A DNA stretch of 64,000 nt from positions 1,426,001 through 1,490,000 of the forward strand of contig NZ_CP081862.1 in NCBI RefSeq assembly GCF_019797765.1, in the 5' to 3' direction. Every line of letters starts with the position of its first letter. Positions within the stretch are counted from its first letter, which is position 1. This document shows, piece after piece, positions 1 to 54,045 of this stretch. The notes under the pieces were generated by a model. The model saw nothing but the letters and a program-made list of their open reading frames with translations. It searched no databases and was not told the origin of the DNA. The translations under genes and the position numbers were made by a program. Source of the DNA: Cellulomonas sp. C5510. GTDB taxonomy: Bacteria > Actinomycetota > Actinomycetes > Actinomycetales > Cellulomonadaceae.

Positions 1-785
1 ACGCGGCCGTTCTGCCCGGAGTCCGTCAGCAGGAACCCGAGCCCCATCGACGACGCGATGAGCTCGGCGGCCACCAGGAACAGCCACGCCTGCGCCATGC
101 CGAGTCGCAGGCCGGCCACCACCGCGGGCAGCGCGGCGGGCAGCTGCACGCCGCCCAGCAGCCGCGGCCCGCGCAGCCCGTAGGCGCGCCCGGCCTCCAC
201 CAGGTGCGGGTCGACGTGCCGCAGCGCGGCGACCACGGTCGTGTACACCGGGAAGAACGCGCCGATCGCGATGAGCGTGATCTTCGAGTCCTCGCCGATC
301 TTCAGCCACAGGATCAGCAGCGGCACCCACGCCAGCGACGGCACCGCGCGCACGGCCGCGAGCACCGGCTCCAGCAGGGCGCCGGCCAGCCGGGACAGCC
401 CGACCAGCGACCCGAGCGCGAGCCCCAGCGCGGCGCCCGCGACGAAGCCGAGCAGCACGCGCTGCGTCGAGATCGCCACGTACGGGCCCAGCAGGCCGCG
501 CTCTGTGAGGTCCACCGCGGCGGTCCACACGGACGCGGGGCTGGGCAGCTGGTACGGCGCGACCCGCCCCGTCGCCGTGACCCACTGCCACGCGAGCAGC
601 AGCAGGGCGGGGACGACGAGGCCGAGCGCCACGCGGACCGGGCGCCGGCCGAGCGGCCCCGCGGCGCGGGGTCCGGGCCCGAGGCCGGGGCTGAACGGGT
701 TCCGGCCGGGCCGGACGCGGCCGCGGTCGTCCGTCACCGGGGCGGACGTGCCCGCGACGGTGGCGGTGCCGAGCACCTGGGACAT
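1..785 (-). CDS. ssuC: ABC transporter permease, aliphatic sulfonate type (3' end cut by window edge)
   Basis: Integral membrane permease of a nitrate/sulfonate/taurine-type ABC importer. About 261 codons are visible, starting at ATG 785, and the C-terminus runs off the left edge. A Pro/Arg-rich cytoplasmic N-terminus of about 50 residues precedes the first membrane helix (LGLVVPALLLLAWQWV). The 'PYQLPSPASVW' segment after it is typical of SsuC/TauC proteins. The permease EAA loop is recognisable as 'EAGRAYGLRGPRLLGGVQLPAA' in shortened form: EAGRAYGLRG followed by LPAALP. It lies 59 bp downstream of the substrate-binding gene and is the last visible gene of the ssuB-ssuA-ssuC transcript. Substrate (sulfonate, taurine, nitrate) cannot be fixed from the permease; the sulfur assignment leans on the Cys leader upstream. 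Very confident of the family. Confidence 0.9.
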   Translation of the reverse strand, partial: MSQVLGTATVAGTSAPVTDDRGRVRPGRNPFSPGLGPGPRAAGPLGRRPVRVALGLVVPALLLLAWQWVTATGRVAPYQLPSPASVWTAAVDLTERGLLGPYVAISTQRVLLGFVAGAALGLALGSLVGLSRLAGALLEPVLAAVRAVPSLAWVPLLILWLKIGEDSKITLIAIGAFFPVYTTVVAALRHVDPHLVEAGRAYGLRGPRLLGGVQLPAALPAVVAGLRLGMAQAWLFLVAAELIASSMGLGFLLTDSGQNGR

Positions 786-844: not shown

Positions 845-1906
845 TCAGTCCGCGATCGTGGACGGGTCCGCGGCCTCGGCGAGCTGCGGGTCGAACAGCT
901 CGTCGAGCGCGGTGTCGACCACGTCCTGCGAGGCCACGTCGCCGGACTCCACGAAGATCGGCCCCACCACCTCGAGCACCGCGCGCTGCGCGTCGCCCGG
1001 GACGGGGTCGATGTCGAGCGTCGTGCGCTCGGTGATCACCGTCTCGGCCACCGCCGGGTCGATGCCGGCGACGTCCGCGAGGATCGCGGCGACCTCGTCG
1101 GGGTTCTCCTGCGCCCACCCGCGCGCCTTCTCGTAGGCGTCGACGACCACCTGCGCGAGGTCCGGGCTGGCGTCCAGGAAGTCCTGCGTCGCGTTGAGGA
1201 ACCCGTAGGTGTTGAAGTCCACGTTCCGGTACAGCAGCGTCGACCCGGCCTCCGCCTCGCTGGCAGCCATCAGCGGGTCCAGGCCCGCCCAGGCGTCCAC
1301 GGAGCCGTTCTCGAGCGCGGCCTTGCCGTCGGCGTGCTGGAGGTTCTGCACCTCGACGTCCGCCGGGTCGACGCCCGCCGCATCGAGCGCCTGCAGCAGG
1401 AAGAAGTACGGGTCGGTGCCCTTCGTGGCGGCGACCGACCGACCCGCGAGGTCCGCGACGTCGGTGATGCCGGACCCCTCCGGCACGACGAGCGCCGACC
1501 ACTCGGGCTGGGAGTAGATGTCGATCGTCCGGATGGGGGAGCCGTTCGCGCGGGCCAGCAGCGCGGCCGATCCTGCGGTCGAGCCGACGTCGACCGCGCC
1601 GGCCCGCAGCGCCTCGTTGGCCTTGTTCGAACCGGCCGACTGCACCCACTCCACGGTGACGTCGTCGCCGAGGGTGGCCTCCAGCCAGCCCTGGTCCTTG
1701 ATGACGAGGCTCAGCGGGTTGTAGGTCGCGAAGTCCAGCGTGAGGGTGTCGGCGCTCCAGGTGGAGTCGTCGCCCCCCTCGGGGGCGGAGCCGGCCTGAG
1801 CCTCGCCCTCGCCGGCGACGCAGCCGCCGAGCAGCAGGGTCGCGGCGAGCACGGAGGCCACGGCGGCGGCGGGGCGGCGCACGGTGGCGCGGGATCGGGC
1901 GGTCAT
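845..1906 (-). CDS. ssuA: ABC transporter substrate-binding lipoprotein, aliphatic sulfonate type
   Basis: Extracytoplasmic receptor of the SsuA/TauA/NMT1 fold, 353 aa. The signal peptide ends in a lipobox (LLGGC near residue 29), so the mature protein is anchored by a diacylated Cys. The body has the family order: 'FATYNPLSLVIKDQGWLE' near the start (an unusual form of the TIGYQ segment), then 'GAVDVGSTAGSAALLARANG', then 'KGTDPYFFLLQALDAAG' and 'GSVDAWAGLDPLMAASE'. ATG 1906 is preceded by AGGAGT at a good distance. It sits between the ATPase gene (68 bp upstream) and the permease gene. The family binds alkanesulfonates, taurine or nitrate; the ligand here is inferred only from the sulfur-type regulatory leader. 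Confidence 0.88.
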   Translation of the reverse strand: MTARSRATVRRPAAAVASVLAATLLLGGCVAGEGEAQAGSAPEGGDDSTWSADTLTLDFATYNPLSLVIKDQGWLEATLGDDVTVEWVQSAGSNKANEALRAGAVDVGSTAGSAALLARANGSPIRTIDIYSQPEWSALVVPEGSGITDVADLAGRSVAATKGTDPYFFLLQALDAAGVDPADVEVQNLQHADGKAALENGSVDAWAGLDPLMAASEAEAGSTLLYRNVDFNTYGFLNATQDFLDASPDLAQVVVDAYEKARGWAQENPDEVAAILADVAGIDPAVAETVITERTTLDIDPVPGDAQRAVLEVVGPIFVESGDVASQDVVDTALDELFDPQLAEAADPSTIAD

Positions 1907-1974: not shown

Positions 1975-2874
1975 TCAGATGGTGTGGTGCAGGTCGGGGT
2001 CGTGCACGTGGTGGTGGGTCGGGACGCCGAGGCCGTCGAGCAGCTCGGCGCGCAGCTCGGCGAGGCGGGCGTCGGCGCGGTCCCGGGGGCGGGCACCCGG
2101 CACGCGCAGGACACGGCGCACGGACGCCCGCTCCGCGTCGGGCGTGCCGAGCAGGACGACGCGGTCCGCGAGGAACAGCGCCTCCTCGACGTCGTGGGTC
2201 ACCAGCAGGACCGTCGTCGGACGCTCGGCGTGGACGTCGAGCAGCAGGTCCTGCATCCGGAGCCGGGTGAGCGCGTCCAGCGCCCCGAACGGCTCGTCGA
2301 GCAGCAGCACCGCCGGGCGCCGGGCGAGGGCCCGGGCGAGCGACGCGCGCTGCGCCATGCCGCCCGAGACCTGCCGGGGCCGCAGGCCCGCCGAGCCGGA
2401 CAGGCCGACGAGGTCCAGCAGCCGCGCCACCTGCTCACGGGCGTCGCGCCGCGGCGTGCCGCGAGGGAGCCCCAGCGCGACGTTCTGCGCGAGCGTCCGC
2501 CACGGCAGCAGCCGCGGCTCCTGGAACGCGACGGCCGTGCGCGGGTCGTACGGTCCGACGGGCGAGCCGCCCAGCAGGATCTCGCCCTCGTCCGGGCGGT
2601 CCAGCCCGGCGACCTGGCGCAGCAGCGTCGACTTGCCGCAGCCGGAGGGGCCGATGACGGCCACGACCTCGCCGGCGGCGACGTCGAGGTCGACGCCGGC
2701 GAGCACCGTGCGGGTGCCCTCCGGGGTGGCGAACGCCCGGGCGACGCCGCGCATCCCGACCGGGCGGGCGGTGCCGGTCGGCGCGGGCGTGGCGGGTGCC
2801 GAGGGCGCGGCGGTGGCGGTGGGCGCGGCGGTGGTCGCGGCGGGCGCCGTGGTGGAGCGGGTGGGGGAGGTCAT
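1975..2874 (-). CDS. ssuB: ABC transporter ATP-binding protein, aliphatic sulfonate type
   Basis: Cytoplasmic ATPase that powers the SsuAC importer, 299 aa from ATG 2874. Residues 1-38 are an Ala/Thr/Pro-rich tail; the ABC domain starts near residue 39. Walker A is GPSGCGKS at 75-82, the Q-loop segment is AFQEPRLLPW, the signature is VSGGMAQR, Walker B is VLLLDEPFG, and the H-loop is VTHDVEEALF; all are intact. The AFQEPRLLPW form is typical of the SsuB/TauB branch. The same frame stays open 369 bp further upstream, but that stretch is only Pro/Arg/Ala low complexity and overlaps the regulatory leader, so ATG 2874 is chosen. It is the first structural gene of the ssu transcript. Overall identity strong, substrate inferred. 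Confidence 0.9.
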   Translation of the reverse strand: MTSPTRSTTAPAATTAAPTATAAPSAPATPAPTGTARPVGMRGVARAFATPEGTRTVLAGVDLDVAAGEVVAVIGPSGCGKSTLLRQVAGLDRPDEGEILLGGSPVGPYDPRTAVAFQEPRLLPWRTLAQNVALGLPRGTPRRDAREQVARLLDLVGLSGSAGLRPRQVSGGMAQRASLARALARRPAVLLLDEPFGALDALTRLRMQDLLLDVHAERPTTVLLVTHDVEEALFLADRVVLLGTPDAERASVRRVLRVPGARPRDRADARLAELRAELLDGLGVPTHHHVHDPDLHHTI

Positions 2875-3252
2875 GCGAGGTCCCAGGTCGTCGGGCCACC
2901 GGCGGTGGCGGGCGGCGGTGCAGGGCGGGCGGTGCGGGGGTGGGCGGGGGCCCGGGGCCGATGGTGCGTGGTGCCGGCTGCACCAGGGGGCAGGTCCGGC
3001 CGGGTGCGCGGCCGGGCGCCTGCGGGCGGGGTCGGCGGGCGCCGGGCCGGGTGTGACCGGCGCGTCGCGCGCGGTGCCGGGACCGTGCGTGCCCCGGCCC
3101 GGACCGCCGGTCAGCGGTGGACGGGGCGGTGCGGGGGGCGGGTCCGGCGGTGCGGCCTGTCGGGCGGGGTCCGGTGGACCCGGGCGTCCCGGGCGGTGCC
3201 GGTCGGGCACCGCGGTGGGGCTCCTGAGCGGAGCCGGGGTCACCGGGTCCGG
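2875..3252 (-). other. Long C-rich untranslated leader of the ssu operon
   Basis: No gene is visible in these 378 bases. In the sense of ssuB transcription the strand is strongly C over G in its middle part (runs such as CCGCCCCCCGCACCGCCCC) and it separates the Cys-rich leader peptide from ssuB. Frames stay open only because of base composition. Such C-rich, G-poor RNA is the kind that Rho can load on, so Rho-dependent attenuation is a reasonable inference, not something seen. Confidence 0.5.
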
Positions 3253-3366
3253 TCAGGCGGCGCGACAGGCCTGCGGACAGCGCGGACAGCCGACGGCGCA
3301 GCGACAGCGGCCGGGCATCGGCCGGCCCGGGCGCTGGGTCGTGCGCGGGTGCGTCGACCGGGCCAC
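3253..3366 (-). CDS. Cys-rich leader peptide (putative attenuator) upstream of ssuBAC
   Basis: A 37-codon ORF too short for routine calling. It starts at GTG 3366 behind a perfect AGGAGG seven bases upstream and ends at TGA 3253. Its last 17 residues read CRCAVGCPRCPQACRAA: five Cys, of which four use TGT, while neighbouring genes such as clpX use TGC for all their zinc-finger cysteines. Codons 20-22 (CGC TGT CGC, 3301-3309) are exactly complementary to GCGACAGCG at 3381-3389 just upstream of the ribosome binding site, so a ribosome paused on the Cys codons would block that 9-bp stem. Cys-rich uORFs that act as cysteine-responsive attenuators of sulfur operons are known from mycobacteria. Function here is inferred; the ORF, its RBS and the pairing are seen. 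Confidence 0.72.
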   Translation of the reverse strand: MARSTHPRTTQRPGRPMPGRCRCAVGCPRCPQACRAA

Positions 3367-3397
3367 GGGCCGCCTCCTCTCGCTGTCGCGCGCCGTC

Positions 3398-3412
3398 ATG
3401 ACGTCTCGTCAT
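3398..3412. promoter_or_regulatory. Palindrome in the ssu leader (operator or stem)
   Basis: ATGACG-AGA-CGTCAT is a perfect 6-bp inverted repeat. An overlapping repeat, CGTCTC-N7-GAGACG, spans 3402-3420. Both lie about 30-45 bases downstream of the predicted start of transcription and upstream of the leader peptide. They could be a repressor site for a sulfur regulator or alternative RNA stems. Confidence 0.45.
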
Positions 3413-3449
3413 GTGAGACGTGGAAGTTCACGCCTCGGGATCGGGGTCG

Positions 3450-3479
3450 ACAGTAGCGGGGACCGGCGGCGCACCACAA
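3450..3479 (-). promoter_or_regulatory. Predicted promoter of the ssu operon
   Basis: Reading on the minus strand: -35 TTGTGG (3474-3479), 18-base spacer, -10 TACTGT (3450-3455). The same layout (TTGT-GG or CG, 18 bases, TACTGT) recurs in front of cysK. Predicted start of transcription is near 3443. Confidence 0.55.
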
Positions 3480-3519
3480 GCCCGGCGCGCCAGGTGCCCG
3501 GGGTGATCCCGGACGCGGG

Positions 3520-4728
3520 TCAGCGGCGGGCGCCGCGGAGCGCGAGGTGGCAGGCGAGGCCCGCGAGCAGCCCCCAGAACGCCGCGGAGATGCCGCCGAC
3601 CGCGATCCCCGACATCGTGACCAGGAACGTCACCGCCGCCGCCTCCCGGTGACCCGGCGCGCCGAAGGCGGCGCCGAGCGACGCCGCGAGCGTCCCGAGG
3701 AGCGCCAGACCCGCGGCTGCCGCGATCAGCCCGCCCGGCGCTGCCAGGGCCACCGCGGCCACCGCCGCCGCCCCGGCGCCCAGCACCACGTACCCCAGGC
3801 CGGCCACGACGGCGGCCCGCCAGCGCCGCCGCGGGTCGGGACCTCCGGCGGGCCCGGCGGCGAGGGCGGCGCTGATGGCCGCCAGGTTGATCGCGTGGCC
3901 GCCCCACGGCGCGGCCAGCACCGTCCCCAGCCCGGTCACGAGCATCACGGGGCGCAGCGGTGCCGCGTACCCGAAGCCCGCGAGCACGGCGAGCCCCGGG
4001 ATGTTCTGCGAGGCCATCGTCACCACGAACAGCGGCACGGCGACCGACACCACCGCGGTCCACGACAGCTGCGGAGTCGTCCACGCGAGCGTCGGCAGCA
4101 GGCTCGCGGCGTCCAGGTGGCGCACCGCGGGCGACGCGACGGCGATCCCCACGGCCAGGCCCATCGCCGCGGGCGTGGCCCAGCGGGGTGCGAGGCGCAG
4201 CAGCACGAGCCAGACGAGCACCACGGGACCCACCAGCAGCGGCCGGTCGGCGACGGCGCGCACCGGCTCCAGGCAGAGGTCCACCAGCACGCCCGCGAGC
4301 ATCGCGTTCGCGAGCGGCACCGGGATCAGCCGCACCCAGCGCTCGAGCCGCCGCCACAGGCCGAACGCGGCGAGCAGGACGCCGCACAGGGCGAACCCCG
4401 CGACCGCCTCCGGCCAGCTGCCGGCTGCCGCCCCCGTACCCGCCAGCAGCGCCGCGCCGGGTGTCGACCACGCGACGGTGATCGGCAGGCGCGTCCGCCA
4501 CGCGAGCAGCACCGTCGCGGCACCCATCGCGACCGTCACGGCGAGCAGGCCCGACGTCGCCTGCGCGGGCGTCGCCCCGACCGCGCGCAGGCCGGCCAGC
4601 ACCACCGCGAACGCGCTGGTGAACCCGACCAGCGCCGTGACGACGCCGGCGGACACGGACGTCGCGGTGTCCCGCGGCGCGGCCCGACCCTCCGGCGGGG
4701 CCGTGTCCAGGGGTGGCGGGGTGGTCAC
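3520..4728 (-). CDS. benE: Benzoate/H+ symporter family transporter (BenE-like)
   Basis: Polytopic inner-membrane protein, 402 aa, with about ten to twelve hydrophobic segments and short charged loops. Recognisable BenE features are the N-terminal 'TALVGFTSAFAVVLAGLRAVGATPAQA', given here by its core GFTSAF and GATPAQA, the 'WSTPGAALL' segment, 'IPVPLANAMLAGVL', and 'TMASQNIPGLAVL' followed by 'APWGGHAINLAAISAA'. These are the conserved blocks of the family, which imports benzoate or related aromatic acids with protons in characterised members. GTG 4728 is chosen because the protein begins directly before the first helix; an open frame further upstream overlaps the next gene and has no coding character. 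No catabolic genes adjoin it, so the substrate is unproven. Confidence 0.85.
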   Translation of the reverse strand: MTTPPPLDTAPPEGRAAPRDTATSVSAGVVTALVGFTSAFAVVLAGLRAVGATPAQATSGLLAVTVAMGAATVLLAWRTRLPITVAWSTPGAALLAGTGAAAGSWPEAVAGFALCGVLLAAFGLWRRLERWVRLIPVPLANAMLAGVLVDLCLEPVRAVADRPLLVGPVVLVWLVLLRLAPRWATPAAMGLAVGIAVASPAVRHLDAASLLPTLAWTTPQLSWTAVVSVAVPLFVVTMASQNIPGLAVLAGFGYAAPLRPVMLVTGLGTVLAAPWGGHAINLAAISAALAAGPAGGPDPRRRWRAAVVAGLGYVVLGAGAAAVAAVALAAPGGLIAAAAGLALLGTLAASLGAAFGAPGHREAAAVTFLVTMSGIAVGGISAAFWGLLAGLACHLALRGARR

Positions 4729-8667: not shown

Positions 8668-9603
8668 TCAGTCCAGGAGGTCGGCGTACAGGATGGAGGA
8701 CAGGTAGCGCTCGCCGAACGACGGGATGATCACCACGATCAGCTTCCCGGCGTTCTCCGGGCGCTTGCCCAGCTCGATGGCCGCGTGCAGCGCCGCGCCG
8801 GACGAGATGCCGACGAGCAGGCCCTCCTCCTTCGCGGCCCGGCGGGCCACGGCCACGGCCGTCTCGGCGTCCACGTCGACGATCTCGTCGTACACGCCGG
8901 TGTCGAGGATCTCGGGCACGAAGTTCGCGCCGATGCCCTGGATCTTGTGCGGGCCGGGCTGGCCGCCGTTGAGGATCGGCGACTCGGCGGGCTCGACGCC
9001 CACGACCTGCACGCCGGGCTTGCGCTCCTTGAGCACCTGGCCGACGCCCGTGATGGTGCCGCCCGTGCCGATGCCGGCGACGAGGATGTCGACCTCGCCG
9101 TCCGTGTCCGCCCAGATCTCCTCGGCGGTCGTGCGGCGGTGGATCGCGGGGTTCGCCTCGTTCGCGAACTGGCGGGCGAGGATGGCGCCCGGCCGCTCCT
9201 GGACGATCTCGTTCGCCCGGTTCACCGCACCCTTCATGCCCTCGGCGGCCGGCGTGAGGATCAGCTCCGCGCCGTACGCCCGCAGCAGCGCGCGCCGCTC
9301 CTTCGACATGGACTCCGGCATGGTCAGCACGACGTCGTACCCGCGCGCGGCGCCGACGAACGCCAGCGCGATGCCGGTGTTGCCGCTGGTCGCCTCGACG
9401 ATGGTCCCGCCCGGCTTCAGCTCGCCGGACGCCTCGGCGGCGTCGACGATCGCCACGCCGATGCGGTCCTTCACCGAGCTCGCGGGGTTGTAGAACTCGA
9501 GCTTGCCGACGACCGTCGCCCCGACACCCTCGGTCAGCTTGTTGATGCGGACCAGGGGGGTGTTGCCGATGAGCTTCGTCGCGTCGTCGTAGATGCGTGC
9601 CAT
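8668..9603 (-). CDS. cysK: Cysteine synthase A (O-acetylserine sulfhydrylase)
   Basis: PLP enzyme that makes cysteine from O-acetylserine and sulfide, 311 aa, cytoplasmic. The PLP lysine is Lys45 in '[12 protein letters not shown]', the substrate loop is '[13 protein letters not shown]', the phosphate-binding loop is '[12 protein letters not shown]', and the C-terminal '[12 protein letters not shown]' is present. All family landmarks and the length match. First gene of cysK-cysE; a 164-base leader separates it from an upstream Cys-codon leader peptide, so expression is likely attenuated by cysteine supply. ATG 9603 has AGAAGGA upstream. Confidence 0.97.
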
Positions 9604-9767
9604 GTCGCGTCCGTCCTTCTCTCGTCAGGTGGTGGGAGTACCGGGGATGACGGGTCCTGCATCGCACGGCACGGGCGGACGCCCTGCCGTGGGGTCCGAG
9701 GCGAGCGCTGGCCGGGGCGTGGCGGACCCGTCAGGGGTGCGACGCGGACGGCGGTGGGGCCAGCGCT

Positions 9768-9854
9768 CTACCGACAGCGACAGGTGCGCCGCGGGGCACG
9801 GGACGTCGCGGGGCGGGACAGGGAACGCACGGTGCTGGACGCGGTGACGCGCAT
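9768..9854 (-). CDS. Short leader peptide with terminal Cys codons upstream of cysK
   Basis: A 28-codon ORF, ATG 9854 to TAG 9768, with GGGAGAGGGAG just upstream. The end of the peptide is APRRTCRCR, and both Cys codons are the unusual TGT. The motif Cys-Arg-Cys is the same as in the ssu leader peptide 6.5 kb away, and the promoter in front has the same layout. Together they suggest cysteine-dependent attenuation of cysK-cysE. With only two Cys codons the case is weaker than for the ssu leader. The ORF and RBS are seen; the regulatory role is inferred. Confidence 0.6.
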   Translation of the reverse strand: MRVTASSTVRSLSRPATSRAPRRTCRCR

Positions 9855-9901
9855 GCCCGGCTCCCTCTCCCGTCAGGTCGGCGTCGGGGCCGACAGGCCC
9901 G

Positions 9902-9931
9902 ACAGTAACCGTAACGCGCGGACGGCGACAA
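9902..9931 (-). promoter_or_regulatory. Predicted promoter of cysK-cysE
   Basis: On the minus strand: -35 TTGTCG (9926-9931), 18-base spacer, -10 TACTGT (9902-9907). This is the same arrangement as the ssu promoter. A GC-rich imperfect hairpin (GTCGGGCC-TGTC-GGCCCCGAC) begins at the -10 end and may form at the 5' end of the transcript. Confidence 0.55.
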
Positions 9932-10068
9932 AGATGCCCGGGTCGTCCGCCGGGCGCCGTCAGTGCCGTCACCAGGGGTTCCTCCGCGCCCGTCGTCACC
10001 CGTCCACGGTGCGCCACGCCCCGCGTCCCCGCCACCGGGTGGTGCGCCGCCGTGGCACGATGCGCGGC

Positions 10069-30860: not shown

Positions 30861-32324
30861 TTAGGCGGCGGCCGGGGCCGGGGCCGGGGTCGGGCGGTGG
30901 GTGAAGCGGTGGAACGTCGCGCGGGTGCCGCCCTCGCTGCGCCGGGCCAGGGCGAGGCCGACGACGACCGCGCCGAGCAGCGGCCCGACGCCGCACGCGA
31001 CCATGCCGGCCCGCGCGCCGAGGTGCTCGCACACCCAGCCGATGAGCGTCCCGGACACGGCCTGCGCGCCGAGCAGCACCAGGACGTACAGCGCCATGAC
31101 GCGGCCGCGGACGTGCGGGGCGACCGTCGTCTGCACCAGGGTGTTCGAGCCCGTGAGGTACAGCAGCGTGGCGACGCCCATCGCGATGAGCACGGCGACG
31201 AACACCGGCCGGCTCGGCGCGGCGGCCGCGAGCAGCTGCAGCACGCCGACGGCCCCCGCGAGCACGACGAGGTGGGTGATGCGGCTGCCTCGGCGTCGGG
31301 TGGACAGCAGCGCGCCGGTGAGCGCACCGACCGCGAGCATCGACGTCAGCAGCGCGTAGCCACCGGCGTCGGTGTGGAACACCTGGTCGGTGTACGCGGC
31401 GAGCACGGTGGCCATGTTGACGCCGGTGACGGCCACGAAGCCGACGAGCACGACCGACCACAGGATGCGCGGCGTCCGGCGGACGTACGCGAGGCCCTCG
31501 CGGAGCTGGCCCTTGGCGCGTGCGACCACCGGGGCGGCCGTGAGCTCGGAGGTGCGCATCACGGCGAGCAGTGCGACGGCGACGAGGCACGCGACGGCGT
31601 TGAGCAGGAACGTCCAGCCCTCGCCGACCGCGCTGATGAGCCCGCCGGCGACCGCCGGGCCGACCAGCCCGCCGAGCTGGAACACCGCGGAGTTGACGCT
31701 GATCGCCTGCCGCAGGTGCTGCGGGCCGGCGACCTCGTGCACGAACGCCTGACGCGCGGGGTTGTCGAACACGGTCGCGAGACCGCTGACGAACGCGGCG
31801 ACGAGCACGTGCCACGCCTGGACGTGACCGGACAGCGCGAGCACGCCCACGGCCAGCGTGGACAGGCCGAACACCGACTGGGTGACCATGAGCACGCGGC
31901 GCCGGGGGTAGCGGTCGGCGACGACCCCGCCGACCAGGCCGAGCAGCAGCATCGGGACGAACTGCAGCGTCACCGTCAGCCCCACCAGCGCGGCCGAGCC
32001 GGTCAGGGTCAGCACGAGCCAGTCCTGGGCGACGCGGGCCGCCCAGCCGCAGGTGTTGGTGAGCACCTGCGAGGAGACGTAGAGCCGGAAGTTCCGGACG
32101 CCGAGCGCGGCGAGCGTGGCGTTGCGGGGGCGCGGGCCGTCGACGGCGACGGGAACGGGCCGACGGTGCAGGGCGAGGCGCGGCCGGTGCAGGGTCCGGC
32201 GGGGCCGGCTGGAGGTCGCGGAGGACGCGGGGGCGGTGCGGTCGGCCTGCGGTGCGCGGCCGGCGCGGGGGGAGGGGCGGCGGGTGCGGGTCGGGGACGA
32301 GGACGGGCGGCGGGCCGAGGGCAC
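30861..32324 (-). CDS. MFS transporter (EntS/MFS_3-like)
   Basis: 487-aa major facilitator with a long basic, Pro/Arg-rich cytoplasmic N-terminus (about 65 residues) before helix 1. The blocks 'NFRLYVSSQVLTNTCGWAARVAQDWLVLTLTGSAALVGLTVTLQF', 'VVADRYPRRRVLMVTQ' and 'DNPARQAFVHEVAGPQHLRQAISVNSAVFQLGGLVGPAVAG' are typical of the EntS-like MFS_3 family, which includes siderophore and drug exporters. The start is ATG 32324; a start nearer helix 1 is possible. It is divergent from a LysR regulator that may control it. Confidence 0.85.
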   Translation of the reverse strand: MPSARRPSSSPTRTRRPSPRAGRAPQADRTAPASSATSSRPRRTLHRPRLALHRRPVPVAVDGPRPRNATLAALGVRNFRLYVSSQVLTNTCGWAARVAQDWLVLTLTGSAALVGLTVTLQFVPMLLLGLVGGVVADRYPRRRVLMVTQSVFGLSTLAVGVLALSGHVQAWHVLVAAFVSGLATVFDNPARQAFVHEVAGPQHLRQAISVNSAVFQLGGLVGPAVAGGLISAVGEGWTFLLNAVACLVAVALLAVMRTSELTAAPVVARAKGQLREGLAYVRRTPRILWSVVLVGFVAVTGVNMATVLAAYTDQVFHTDAGGYALLTSMLAVGALTGALLSTRRRGSRITHLVVLAGAVGVLQLLAAAAPSRPVFVAVLIAMGVATLLYLTGSNTLVQTTVAPHVRGRVMALYVLVLLGAQAVSGTLIGWVCEHLGARAGMVACGVGPLLGAVVVGLALARRSEGGTRATFHRFTHRPTPAPAPAAA

Positions 32325-32441
32325 AGGTGTTCCTAGCTGAGGTGGTGCGGCGGTGTGGGTGCGGAAGCGTTGCGGACGCGTCGGGGTGGCTCCAGCCTAC
32401 GTCCGGAGGGTCGATTTTCAGAGGTGATGACGGGAATGACT

Positions 32442-32449
32442 GTGATCAC
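32442..32449. promoter_or_regulatory. LysR-type operator candidate
   Basis: GTGATCAC, an 8-bp palindrome, lies midway between the divergent MFS and LysR genes, inside a local AT-richer stretch (32412-32465) that also contains GTGATGA and TGTGATGATG repeats. It is the natural place for LysR binding. Confidence 0.4.
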
Positions 32450-32514
32450 GTTCTGTGATGATGTGGTGGTGGCGCCGCAGGTCAGCGGCACCGCCTGAGA
32501 CCGGGAGGGCAGCC

Positions 32515-33363
32515 GTGTTTGACCCCGACCAGCTCCGCACTTTCCTCGCCGTTTCCGAGACGTTGAACTTCACGCGCGCCGCAGCCCGGCTGTCCCTGTC
32601 GCAGCCCACGGTCAGCCAGCACGTCCGCAAGCTCGAGGACGCCGCGGGCCGCCGGCTGCTCGACCGCGACACCCGCGGCGTGCAGCTGACCGACGACGGG
32701 CAGGCGATGGCGACGTTCGCCCGGACGATCCTCGCGGCGCACGACGAGGCGACGCGCTACTTCACCGGGTCGGCGATGCACGGCCGGCTGCGGTTCGGCG
32801 CGGCGGACGACCTGGCGCTCGCCCAGCTCCCGCGCGTGCTGCGCGACTTCCGGCGCCTGCACCCGCGGATCAACCTGGAGCTCACCGTGGCGCAGAGCGG
32901 CACCCTGCACCGCCGGCTGCACGCGGGCCAGCTCGACCTCGTCTACATCAAGGAGGCGACCGGGCAGTCCGACGGCCAGCTCGTGCGCCGGGACCGGCTC
33001 GTGTGGGTGGCGGTCCCGGGCACGGCGGTCGAGGCCGACGCCCCCGTGCCGCTCATCACCTACCAGGGTGCCTCGCTCACCCGGCAGGCCGCCGTCCGGG
33101 CGCTCACCGAGGCGGGACGCCCCTGGCGGACCACGTGCAAGGTCGTCGAGGTCAACGGCGTGCTCGCCGCGCTGCGGGCCGGACTCGGCATCGCGGTGCT
33201 GCCGCAGAGCCTGCTGCCGGACGACCTGGTGCAGCTCCCCGCGGCGGCGCTGGGCCTGCCGGACCTCGGCGACGTCGACATCACCCTCGTCGCGAACCCG
33301 CGGTCGCCGCGGGAGCCGATCGAGGCGCTCACGTCGGCGATCCTCGGGCACGCACCGCGCTGA
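32515..33363 (+). CDS. LysR-family transcriptional regulator
   Basis: 282 aa. N-terminal winged helix-turn-helix 'LRTFLAVSETLNFTRAAARLSLSQPTVSQHVRKLEDAAGRRLLDRDTRGVQLT' (residues about 6-58; core RAAARLSLSQPTVSQHVRKL) and a two-lobed effector domain with 'GRLRFGAADDLALAQLPRVLRDFRRLHPRINLEL'. GTG 32515 with GGGAGGG upstream is chosen. It is divergent from the MFS exporter, the classical regulator-target layout. Effector unknown. Confidence 0.93.
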   Translation: MFDPDQLRTFLAVSETLNFTRAAARLSLSQPTVSQHVRKLEDAAGRRLLDRDTRGVQLTDDGQAMATFARTILAAHDEATRYFTGSAMHGRLRFGAADDLALAQLPRVLRDFRRLHPRINLELTVAQSGTLHRRLHAGQLDLVYIKEATGQSDGQLVRRDRLVWVAVPGTAVEADAPVPLITYQGASLTRQAAVRALTEAGRPWRTTCKVVEVNGVLAALRAGLGIAVLPQSLLPDDLVQLPAAALGLPDLGDVDITLVANPRSPREPIEALTSAILGHAPR

Positions 33364-51269: not shown

Positions 51270-52436
51270 ATGAGGAACTCCAGGAGTCGCGCGTGGGCAG
51301 GGGCCGGCGCGCTCGGGCTCGCGGCGGCGCTCGCGCTCACCGCGTGCTCGAGCGGGTCCGACGACGACACGGCCGGGTCCGGCGGCGACGAGACGTCGGC
51401 GTCCGGCGAGCTCACGCCGGTGAAGCTGCAGCTCCAGTGGCTGACTCAGGCCCAGTTCTCCGGCTACTACGCCGCGCTGGACCAGGGGTACTACGAGGAC
51501 GAGGGCCTCGACGTCGAGATCATCCCGAGCGGCGGCGACATCGTCCCGCAGGACGCGCTCGCCAACGGGGAGGTCGACTACGCCATCGCGTGGGTCCCGA
51601 AGGTGCTCGGCTCCATCGAGCAGGGCGCTGACATCACCGACGTCGCGCAGATCTTCGAGCGCTCCGCGACGTTGCAGGTCTCGTTCGCCGACGCCGGCAT
51701 CGACTCCGTCGCCGACCTCGAGGGCAAGACGATCGGGTCCTGGGGCTACGGCAACGAGTGGGAGCTGTTCGCCGGGCTGAACAAGGCCGGGGTCACCGAC
51801 TTCGAGATCGTCCAGCAGGCGTTCGACATGAACGCGTTCCTCGCGGGCGACATCGACGCCGCGCAGGCCATGACGTACAACGAGTACGCCCAGCTGCTCG
51901 AGACCGAGAACCCCGAGACCGGCGAGCTCTACACGCCCGAGGACTTCTCCGTCATCGACTGGAACGACGAGGGCACCGCCATGCTCCAGGACGCCATCTG
52001 GGCGGACGCGGGCCGGCTCGCCGACGACCCGGACTACGCCGAGACCACGGTGAAGTTCATCAAGGCGTCCCTCAAGGGCTGGGTGTTCGCCCGCGACAAC
52101 GCCCAGGAGGCCGCCGACATCGTCACCGCGGCCGGCTCGACGCTCGGCACCAGCCACCAGCTCTGGATGACGAACGAGGTCAACGAGCTCATCTGGCCGT
52201 CCACGTCGGGCGGCATCGGCATGATCGACGCCGACGCGTGGGACGCGACCGTCGAGATGGCCAAGCAGACGTCCAACGAGACGGGCGCGACGATCATCAC
52301 GGCCGACCCGCCGGAGACCGCGTGGTCGAACGAGTACGTGCAGCAGGCGCTGGACGAGCTCACCGCCGAGGGCGTCGACGTCGAGGGCGCGGACTTCGAG
52401 CCCATCGAGGTCGAGCTGCAGCCCGGCGGGAACTGA
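51270..52436 (+). CDS. Pyrimidine-type ABC transporter substrate-binding lipoprotein (NMT1/THI5-like)
   Basis: 388 aa. Signal peptide with lipobox LTAC (Cys near residue 26), then an acidic Ser/Gly linker. 'VKLQLQWLTQAQFSGYYAALDQGYYEDEGLDVEIIPSGGDIVPQDALANGEVDYAIAW' is the NMT1/THI5 start (core QFSGYYAALDQGYY), typical of receptors for thiamine-like pyrimidines, and the operon makes uracil-type or hydantoin ligands likely. ATG 51270 has GGAAGGGG upstream, 116 bp after the permease. It ends the operon; a strong hairpin follows. Confidence 0.92.
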   Translation: MRNSRSRAWAGAGALGLAAALALTACSSGSDDDTAGSGGDETSASGELTPVKLQLQWLTQAQFSGYYAALDQGYYEDEGLDVEIIPSGGDIVPQDALANGEVDYAIAWVPKVLGSIEQGADITDVAQIFERSATLQVSFADAGIDSVADLEGKTIGSWGYGNEWELFAGLNKAGVTDFEIVQQAFDMNAFLAGDIDAAQAMTYNEYAQLLETENPETGELYTPEDFSVIDWNDEGTAMLQDAIWADAGRLADDPDYAETTVKFIKASLKGWVFARDNAQEAADIVTAAGSTLGTSHQLWMTNEVNELIWPSTSGGIGMIDADAWDATVEMAKQTSNETGATIITADPPETAWSNEYVQQALDELTAEGVDVEGADFEPIEVELQPGGN

Positions 52437-52444
52437 CCGGCCCG

Positions 52445-52479
52445 CCCCGGGCCGCGGACCCCGCGTCCGCGGCCCGGGG
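52445..52479 (+). terminator. Terminator of the pyrimidine operon
   Basis: Perfect 15-bp stem CCCCGGGCCGCGGAC (52445-52459) with 52465-52479 and a five-base loop, eight bases after the substrate-binding gene. It means the following aminotransferase has its own promoter. Confidence 0.85.
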
Positions 52480-52497
52480 CCGCTCGCGCCCGTGTTC

Positions 52498-52620
52498 CGC
52501 GCACCCGCACCCGTGCCCCTCGCACCCACTCACCCGCGCCCAGCCGCACCCGCTCCCGCACCCACCCGCTCACGCACCCAACCGCATCCGCACCCACCCG
52601 CACACGCACCCGCACCCAGC
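52498..52620. repeat. C-rich low-complexity tract of CACCCG-type units
   Basis: About 120 bases of degenerate six-base iterations (CACCCG, CACCCA, CATCCG, CTCCCG), with almost no G runs. It encodes nothing credible in any frame. The opposite strand is a G-rich tract that might form quadruplexes. Confidence 0.65.
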
Positions 52621-52627
52621 CCGTCGC

Positions 52628-52685
52628 CGAGAATCCAGGACACGCCGGGCGCCGGGCTCTCCGCTCGGCGTGTCCTGGATTCTCG
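52628..52685. repeat. Perfect 20-bp inverted repeat
   Basis: Arms CGAGAATCCAGGACACGCCG (52628-52647) and its exact complement (52666-52685) with an 18-base loop. The arm core GAATCCAGGACAC has lower GC than the surroundings. It lies 44 bases before the aminotransferase start, after the operon's terminator. Confidence 0.85.
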
Positions 52686-52728
52686 CCGCCGCTCACCGGA
52701 ACGCACCCCACGAAAGGCCACCGCAGCC

Positions 52729-54045
52729 ATGACTCTCGACGCCGACGGCCGGCTCGCGCTCGAGCTCGACCGCGCGCATGTGTTCCACTCCTGGTCCGCG
52801 CAGGGCTCGCTGTCGCCCCTCGTGGTGGACGGGGCGTCCGGGTGCGAGGTGCACCTGGCCGACGGCCGCACGATGCTCGACTTCAGCAGCCAGCTCGTCA
52901 ACACCAACATCGGCCACCAGCACCCGCGCGTGACGGCTGCGATCGCCGAGCAGGCGGGCCGGCTCGCGACGATCGCCCCGGCGCACGCCGTCCTGCCGCG
53001 CGGCCGGGCCGCGGAGGCGATCCTGCGGCACGCACCGGAGGGCTTCTCGAAGGTCTTCTTCACGAACGCGGGCGCGGACGCCAACGAGAACGCGATCCGC
53101 ATGGCCCGGCAGGCCACCGGGCGGGACAAGATCCTGTCGTTCTACCGCTCGTACCACGGCAACACCGGCGCGGCCGTCGTCGCGACCGGCGACTGGCGGC
53201 GGGTGCCCAACGAGTACGCCCGCGGTCACGTCCACGTCTTCGGGCCGTACCTGTACCGGTCGGATTTCTGGGCGAGCACCCCGGAGCAGGAGTGCGAGCG
53301 CGCGCTGCACCACCTCGAGCGGGTGGTCGCGTCGGAAGGCCCGGGGTCGATCGCGGCGATCCTGCTCGAGACGGTCGTCGGCACCGGCGGCGTGCTCGTG
53401 CCACCGCCCGGGTACCTCGCCGGTGTGCGGGAGATCGCGGACCGGCACGGCATCCTGCTGATCCTCGACGAGGTCATGGCGGGGTTCGGCCGCACCGGCT
53501 CGTGGTTCGCGTTCGAGCAGCACGACGTGGTGCCGGACCTCATCACGTTCGCGAAGGGGGTCAACTCCGGCTACGTGCCGGCCGGCGGCGTGGTGATCTC
53601 CGACCCCGTGGCCGCCGTCTTCGACGACCGCGTCTTCCCCGGGGGCCTCACGTACTCCGGCCACCCGCTCGCGATGGCCGCCGTCGTCGCGACGATCGAG
53701 GCGATGGAGGACGAGAAGATCGTCGAGAACGCCGCCCGCATCGGCGCGGACGTGCTCGGGCCCGGCCTGCGGGCGCTCGCGGACGCGCATCCCTGCGTCG
53801 GCGAGGTCCGCGGGACCGGCGTGTTCTGGGCCCTGGAGCTCGTCACCGACCGCGCCACCCGGGAGCCCGTGCCCGCGGCGGCGATGGGCGCCGTGAAGTC
53901 CGCGCTGCTCGCCGGCGGCATGCTCCCGTTCGTCCAGGACAACCGCATCCACGTCGTCCCGCCGTGCGTCGTCACGGACACCGAGGTCGCCCGCGCCCTC
54001 GCGATCTACGACGCCGCCCTTACCGCCCTGGACGCCACCCTCTAG
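52729..54045 (+). CDS. Class III aminotransferase (beta-alanine/omega-amino acid:pyruvate type)
   Basis: PLP enzyme of 438 aa. 'HVFHSWSAQGSLSPLVVDGASGCEVHLADGRTMLDFSSQLVNTNIGHQHPRV' is the class III start (core FSSQLVNTNIGHQHPRV); 'FFTNAGADANENAIRMAR', 'LLILDEVMAGFGRTG' and the PLP lysine in 'LITFAKGVNSGYVPAGGV' are intact. Next to pyrimidine degradation, the likely donor is beta-alanine, giving malonate semialdehyde. Alternatives are other omega-amino acids. ATG 52729 begins after GAAAGG. Own transcription unit. Confidence 0.9.
   Translation: MTLDADGRLALELDRAHVFHSWSAQGSLSPLVVDGASGCEVHLADGRTMLDFSSQLVNTNIGHQHPRVTAAIAEQAGRLATIAPAHAVLPRGRAAEAILRHAPEGFSKVFFTNAGADANENAIRMARQATGRDKILSFYRSYHGNTGAAVVATGDWRRVPNEYARGHVHVFGPYLYRSDFWASTPEQECERALHHLERVVASEGPGSIAAILLETVVGTGGVLVPPPGYLAGVREIADRHGILLILDEVMAGFGRTGSWFAFEQHDVVPDLITFAKGVNSGYVPAGGVVISDPVAAVFDDRVFPGGLTYSGHPLAMAAVVATIEAMEDEKIVENAARIGADVLGPGLRALADAHPCVGEVRGTGVFWALELVTDRATREPVPAAAMGAVKSALLAGGMLPFVQDNRIHVVPPCVVTDTEVARALAIYDAALTALDATL

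Follow-up and report, generated by a model that had tools for sequence, protein, structure and literature searches.

The cysteine-rich open reading frame (ORF) that lies upstream of ssuB is probably a leader that senses cysteinyl-tRNA for ssuBAC, such that ribosomes stalled at its Cys codons would counter Rho-dependent termination; we infer the cysteine response, its direction and the role of Rho from comparisons among genomes. We further propose, tentatively and with slightly more doubt than belief, that this leader belongs to a two-part sulfur switch, consisting of a Cys cluster and a stop-codon helix that shields the RNA from Rho, which would serve cysK and ssu in Cellulomonas, Actinotalea and other Micrococcales and would need neither a terminator nor a consistent competing stem. 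The ssu leader of the window, by which we mean the whole 64,000-nucleotide stretch of DNA that was analysed, would then be a derived form whose sensor is kept and whose helix has been reshaped or lost.

The leader ORF and the operon it precedes

The leader and the genes that follow it are located in the window as listed here.

3253..3366, minus strand: Cys-rich leader ORF VARSTHPRTTQRPGRPMPGRCRCAVGCPRCPQACRAA, from GTG at 3366 to TGA at 3253, 37 codons
3373..3378, minus strand: leader Shine-Dalgarno (SD) sequence AGGAGG, 6 nt spacing to the GTG
1975..2874, minus strand: ssuB-type ABC transporter ATPase gene; the top NCBIfam model is an aliphatic sulfonate ATPase, under its curated cut-off
845..1906, minus strand: ssuA, aliphatic sulfonate-binding protein; SsuA_fam above cut-off
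3..785, minus strand: ssuC-type permease, truncated by the window edge; top model SsuC, below cut-off

The first-pass annotation described this ORF correctly as having 37 codons, a perfect AGGAGG and a C-terminal end that reads CRCAVGCPRCPQACRAA. Its start is SD-led, with a 5' UTR that we place at roughly 80 nt, and hence it is not a leaderless ORF. The five Cys codons (21 TGT, 23 TGC, 27 TGT, 30 TGT and 34 TGT) form one C-R-C and three single Cys, with no two of them contiguous. The earlier observation that four of the five are TGT, whereas nearby genes use TGC, is borne out: the TGT:TGC ratio is 4:1 in the leader versus 8:79 in a crudely chosen set of 33 window ORFs (Fisher p 0.0008). Among the 28 SD-preceded start codons in the window that open ORFs of 15-60 codons, the leader is the richest in Cys, with five against three for the runner-up. 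The CTGTC repeats of this stretch, once considered as a protein site, are mostly a by-product of TGT-C codons, and they stand out less in the main ssu subtype. Rfam at gathering scores matched only tRNAs in the whole window, and nothing but two sub-threshold mir-598 matches at ten ssu loci.

Conservation of the leader among relatives

We surveyed 81 genomes of the same genus; 37 of them encode a close SsuA, and for each of these we extracted the sequence upstream of ssuA, contigs permitting. A complete Cys-rich leader precedes ssuB in 30 of these 37 genomes, and a partial one in three: the leader of G041 is truncated by a contig end after 11 codons, G078 displays the leader end only, and G006 is counted as partial since it was reached through an RNA model alone and not by reading the ORF. 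In the other four (G001, G068, G037 and G007) the contig ends before the leader. Within the genus, no readable ssu locus is without a Cys-rich leader. Because the leader recurs in this way, and because it has the highest Cys count in the window, we regard it as more than a chance ORF.

The 30 complete leaders comprise nine of the window subtype (for example, VARSMHPRTTQRPGLPMSASARCCRPSASCPRTSRAA) and 21 others, many of which take the form M...CRCCPCCxMQPxTGPR. Between ssu loci the peptides differ as widely as VARSMHPRTTQRPGLPMSASARCCRPSASCPRTSRAA and MTVARPLLAACCRCCSCCLMQPCTGPR. AGGAG and the hexamer TACTGT, a likely promoter element described below, are each kept in all nine other loci of the window subtype, and CC is present in seven of the nine same-subtype leaders. 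In an alignment of nine same-subtype sequences, the gaps within the ORF, counted per row, are all multiples of three (20 of length 3, one of 21), and those upstream of the ORF have lengths of 1, 5, 6, 17 and 18. Divergence by codon position in these leaders is 0.20, 0.20 and 0.18, and the Cys-bearing half of the ORF drifts faster (0.26-0.33) than the first half (0.09-0.11); these values therefore do not demonstrate selection at the level of the peptide.

The preserved reading frame would suit a working Cys-rich small protein, such as a metal or thiol sensor, in place of a cis-acting leader. We consider this highly improbable, given that the ssu peptides of the different subtypes and the cysK leader peptides described below have little in common besides their Cys clusters, and that none of six leaders scanned (6/6) matched an NCBIfam family.

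In named records, the Cys leader also occurs in C. fimi, C. cellasea, C. timonensis, C. carbonis and seven Actinotalea, some of these leaders being seen only under a relaxed screen of two Cys; the screen covered 79 of 80 loci. Screening found no Cys leader in Actinotalea K2, a doubtful one in C. aerilata, and no clear SD-led one at the Georgenia, Frigoribacterium, Promicromonospora and Arthrobacter loci; across the named loci outside Cellulomonas and Actinotalea, the screen yielded no convincing SD-led Cys leader. About 1.1 kb upstream of ssuA, three Arthrobacter loci (L163, L165, L167) carry short Cys-clustered ORFs (CFCVDCY, SCDCYLVCY) that have no clear SD. A further record, L178, labelled Vibrio cholerae 35D, has a 65% SsuA match among Arthrobacter records; it is probably a mislabelled or contaminated contig, and was not used.

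Judged from sequence, then, the leader has the anatomy of an attenuator, namely a conserved Cys-rich short ORF directly upstream of a sulfur gene, and the suggestion that it is a Cys-rich attenuator leader of the ssu operon is strongly supported by comparison across the genus.

The stem around the leader's ribosome binding site

The first-pass annotation went further, and proposed an autogenous switch in which a ribosome at Cys21 would break a 9-bp stem enclosing the leader's own ribosome binding site.

3381..3389, minus strand: 5' arm of this stem, not conserved
3301..3309, minus strand: 3' arm of this stem, not conserved

The stem does exist in the window, where the two arms are perfectly complementary (9/9). 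In eight aligned relatives only 0-3 of the nine pairs can form, because the 5' arm sits in an insertion, specific to the window's own species, that is missing in whole or in part from all eight. Furthermore, perfect 9-bp stems arise in 22% of 500 dinucleotide shuffles of the leader, so that the stem is no rarer than expected by chance. We therefore reject it as the switch, and give the autogenous reading almost no credence. Conservation of the ORF and its Cys codons in relatives had been named beforehand as the observation by which the idea should be judged; the leader came through that comparison, and the stem did not.

A helix between the ORF tail and the RNA beyond the stop codon

A different pairing recurs among relatives. 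Of 40 leaders tested, 30 have an ORF tail that, downstream of the Cys codons, can pair with RNA past the stop codon, and the arms of this putative helix differ in sequence among four groups. In the main type (15 leaders, alignment A1), the ORF tail is GCACCGGC, or GCGCCGGC in one case, and its partner is an invariant GCCGGTGC located 32-36 nt after the stop. Both main-type arms recur in four C. xylanilytica-type leaders (one with the same G for A), where they lie one codon nearer the stop at an identical distance from a Cys codon. Eight of nine Actinotalea-type leaders, two of them from Cellulomonas records, have arms GCGCTGGC(G) and (C)GCCAGCGC; in the ninth, APG4, both arms are altered and the pairing is retained. 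Two further genera, found only by the covariance model R1, have arms GCGCCGG/CCGGCGC and CGCGCCGG/CCGGCGTG, in each case between a Cys leader and ssuB.

The 5' arm begins 15-17 nt downstream of the first nucleotide of a Cys codon at all 30 loci of the four groups, a regularity to be read with the caveat that loci are related within groups and that Cys codons are numerous. This distance is about where a ribosome halted at a Cys codon would end.

Model R1 matched 22 of 221 genomes of the family, once in each. Of its 20 Cellulomonas matches, 19 are training sequences, and the other, in G006, lies just before ssuB; G006 was outside the training set but is close to G011 by its cysK leader. An alignment of 21 distinct sequences, fitted to R1 and so leaning towards the model, has 97.5% of its cells paired, versus 37-46% when the partners are slid. 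Three pairs are changed on both sides, which was equalled in 2 of 500 shuffles, and one of these three lies in the ORF-tail helix; further pair types are not in excess of shuffles (184/500). Sequence by sequence, the shuffle significance of the ssu helix is weak, with p of 0.03-0.25 in three groups and 0.43-0.46 in the two other genera, and shuffles that score the ORF-tail pairing by duplex energy also give a weak result for single sequences. The argument for the ssu helix is carried by the comparative pattern, and not by single-sequence statistics.

The helix was not found in C. fimi (p 0.69), in C. cellasea (p 0.90) or in six of eight window-type loci tested; G028 has an 8-bp stem elsewhere (p 0.15), and G057, G035, G015, G009 and G017 have no stem longer than 6 bp. 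Window-type leaders likewise went unmatched by R1 up to E 1, one window-type locus being matched elsewhere at E 0.85. The window itself and G076 share a weak candidate.

3263..3271, minus strand: candidate ORF-tail helix, 5' arm GGCCTGTCG, which includes the Cys34 codon; weak
3154..3162, minus strand: candidate ORF-tail helix, 3' arm CGACAGGCC; weak

This 9-bp stem (3271-3263/3162-3154) is common only to the window and G076, with shuffle p of 0.13 and 0.23, and its start lies 17 nt past Cys27; it may have replaced the helix in this lineage or have arisen by chance. The helix tests, like the tests of C-over-G skew given below, omit G038, G041, G043, G063, G078, C. aerilata and C. timonensis.

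A second Cys leader, before cysK

The window holds another sulfur gene with a leader of this kind; this leader and its nearly invariant stop-codon helix together take up 9695-9854 on the minus strand.

9768..9854, minus strand: second Cys leader MRVTASSTVRSLSRPATSRAPRRTCRCR, upstream of cysK
9703..9768, minus strand: putative cysK leader helix; 5' arm 9768-9758 (GAGCGCTGGCC, which begins in the stop codon), 3' arm 9713-9703
8668..9603, minus strand: cysK, cysteine synthase A, model above cut-off; target of the second leader

We located cysK in 44 of 45 genomes of the genus and fetched 30 loci. A Cys leader ending ...TGTCGCTGTCNNTAG, or nearly so, is present in 29 of them; the thirtieth, L258, offers just 183 nt of upstream sequence. 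The stop codon starts the arm GAGCGCTGG(CC), whose partner is (GG)CCAGCGCTC; the CCAG core of the 3' arm lies 42-62 nt after the stop, and the loop is unconserved. This pairing is the best stem of the scan in 26 of 29 loci, another stem scoring higher in L255, L259 and L263, and it beats shuffles at p of 0.05 or less in 29/29. Across all 28 distinct rows the nine pairs nearest the stop are kept, and the last two often fail. One C-G pair has become G-U, with both sides changed, in L242, and by eye A-U replaces G-C in L297. A stem competing for the 3' arm was sought as well: its median p is 0.95, and it reached p < 0.05 in one locus of 29.

The corresponding covariance model, R2, matched 47 of 347 genomes of the order, in eight of 104 genera and at one place each; ten of the 47 are of the same genus, nine of those being training genomes. 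In all 30 matched loci that were read cysK follows, with a Cys leader seen in 29, and 20 of the 30 lie outside the genus. Across 345 genomes of the class, R2 found just the window's genome and one weak match. Rfam gave no match at 9500-9950 up to E 1. Five Actinotalea loci (L142, L136, L134, L140, L131) have R2 matches at about 284-443, some 3 kb upstream of ssuA, which are perhaps cysK leaders; in L119 an R2 match at 2324-2440 coincides with the ssu leader.

The existence of this sister element favours attenuation as the role of the ssu leaders too, and a stop-codon helix, as opposed to a stem at the ribosome binding site, as their usual RNA part.

The tract between the leader and ssuB

2875..3252, minus strand: C-over-G untranslated region, candidate Rho-loading stretch by its skew; no intrinsic terminator found

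The tract from the leader stop to the ssuB ATG (2874) is 378 nt long, with 54% C and 31% G on the sense strand, in the top 0.5% of 378-nt windows on both strands of the 64 kb. The length and C-richness noted in the first-pass annotation are thus correct for the window, but the length is not typical: only G076, at 373 nt, comes near it, and six other measured relatives of the subtype have 148-247 nt. Both the sequence and the length of the tract (99-378 nt) drift among 38 loci, in all of which (38/38) the C-over-G skew is 0.18-0.39, versus 0.00-0.16 in the first 600 nt of ssuB. Elsewhere in the window, 31941-32578 and 52361-52878 have a strand skew equal to that of the ssu leader tract.

A scan of the window from 2700 to 3600 found no intrinsic terminator, the mark of a classical transcription attenuator. 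C-rich, G-poor untranslated RNA after a leader is the sequence pattern of a Rho attenuator; it is circumstantial for Rho itself, and a Rho-dependent off-state is the simplest reading of it. Given C-over-G RNA in 38/38 loci together with the absence of a terminator in the scan, we therefore favour the explanation that stalling at Cys codons antagonises Rho.

Translational attenuation would account for the leader differently: its RNA would hide the ssuB start and a stalled ribosome would open it, which is how papers describe the mycobacterial polycysteine ORFs. The ssuB SD is indeed weak (GGGA, GGA or AGGA) in the relatives inspected, and in five of nine Actinotalea-type leaders the predicted ssuB start opens by more than 0.05 on stalling. 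The mean predicted opening, taken as the stalled state minus the stop-codon state, hardly changes: it is +0.01 in 15 main-type, +0.04 in four xylanilytica-type, -0.01 in eight window-type and +0.035 in nine Actinotalea-type leaders. The mean being so alike in both states, hiding of the start is unsupported by the model, even though single loci differ. The cysK starts inspected, moreover, mostly have a good SD, and the competing stem described above reaches p < 0.05 at a single cysK locus of 29. We therefore judge translational attenuation unlikely. Long-range pairing of the conserved leader start with the ssuB start was also considered for the window subtype, and proved no better than pairing with other downstream windows.

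A GTG at 3243, 9 nt beyond the stop codon of the leader, shares the ssuB frame, which is open across the whole tract. Counting the window, 8/8 window-type genomes have an open ssuB frame that reaches upstream as far as the leader stop or falls at most 13 nt short of it, which is expected because T is very rare there. An in-frame extension of SsuB from this GTG was rejected, since among these genomes the window alone offers start codons immediately after the leader.

The promoter and its palindrome

3450..3455, minus strand: likely -10 element TACTGT, with a weak -35 TTGTGG about 18 nt upstream
3401..3421, no strand assigned: palindrome ACGTCTC-N7-GAGACGT, just downstream of the inferred transcription start; possibly an IclR-type (NdgR-like) operator

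The likely -10 element lies about 85 nt upstream of the leader GTG; an automatic sigma-70 scan found no promoter at the ssu leader. A search for the dyad in the window's genome, allowing up to three mismatches, gave ten matches versus 16 for a reversed control, and the match count is therefore uninformative. Two of the matches are palindromic by eye, one upstream of a metY-like gene and the other between an IclR-type gene and leuC. The exact sequence GTCTCA-N5-TGAGAC occurs in 35 of 221 family genomes, versus four for the reversed control, and the 30 loci fetched comprise nine between IclR and leuC, two at ssuB, one at metY, two near distant ABC ATPases and 16 unassigned. We take the IclR protein beside leuC to be NdgR-like from its gene position; none of the NCBIfam models names it. 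In Streptomyces, NdgR is reported to control leucine and cysteine genes via GTCCA-N5-GGAC-like sites (PMC4340878). At one locus, L215 (G062), the palindrome is followed by a short ORF ending CPCPCQA, perhaps another Cys leader, and by a gene with no assignment.

Since this type of dyad recurs beside IclR and leuC, and NdgR governs leucine and cysteine genes, control of ssu may have two layers, an NdgR-like operator and the leader. The same recurrence, together with the copy before the metY-like gene, could be taken to mean that the palindrome alone controls ssu and that the ORF is a passenger. We find this improbable: it leaves unexplained both the Cys clusters in unlike leaders at two sulfur genes and the helices tied to stop codons.

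Comparison with known systems

Our leaders resemble the mycobacterial polycysteine ORFs in being short, in lying upstream of sulfur genes and in having a Cys cluster that is supposed to slow ribosomes at low cysteine. Candidates are given by Shell et al. 2015 (PMC4633059), and the ORFs of Canestrari et al. 2020 are taken as cited in PMC9031893, PMC9094748 and PMC13236596. The mycobacterial ORFs are leaderless and have other targets, whereas the Cellulomonas leaders are SD-led, precede ssu and cysK, and in cysK and many ssu cases have an additional candidate helix.

Candidate Cys leaders were reported by Seliverstov et al. 2005 (PMC1262725) for the cys operons of Mycobacterium and P. acnes and for cbs of B. 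longum. That paper describes Cys runs near the stop, no terminators and polyY stretches, and suggests Rho-dependent termination; these features and the Rho reading are shared with our leaders, with no terminator found in the window at 2700-3600. It reports no conserved hairpins, in contrast to the conserved stop-proximal helix predicted here for the leaders of cysK and for many of those of ssu. In the uORFC-8-2 motif of cysS from Rhodobacterales (PMC8632094), a short ORF has tandem Cys codons accompanied by conserved stems; the motif belongs to another phylum and another gene, and ends in an intrinsic-terminator-like stem with a U run, whereas none was found here at 2700-3600.

Gating of Rho by a leader peptide has a precedent in E. 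coli tnaC, which stalls by means of its nascent peptide plus tryptophan. The proposed Rho gating is shared, and the difference is that codon starvation is proposed here.

By its anatomy, then, the ORF would be classed as a cysteine leader-peptide attenuator, set apart from the mycobacterial ones by its SD-led start, its targets and the helix of many relatives. For Micrococcales, we met no account of Cys leaders at ssu or cysK in a literature search that mostly did not reach subscription papers.

Proposed mechanism and its meaning

When cysteine is ample, ribosomes would translate the leader to its stop and leave, whereupon the C-rich untranslated RNA would recruit Rho and most transcripts would end before ssuB. 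When cysteine is scarce, ribosomes would halt at the leader Cys codons. In many relatives, the halted ribosome would free the ORF tail to pair beyond the stop, covering the stop codon and the C-rich start of the tract; this helix would keep Rho off, and ssu would be transcribed. In the window subtype, the helix would be missing, or replaced by 3263-3271/3154-3162.

If this proposal is right, cysteine attenuation extends from mycobacteria to Micrococcales, at two sulfur genes in one genome. A compact conserved helix would make the step from stall to expression, in organisms where terminators are rare, testable by a few mutations. The comparison also suggests that such switches turn over, with the sensor staying in place while the RNA part changes.
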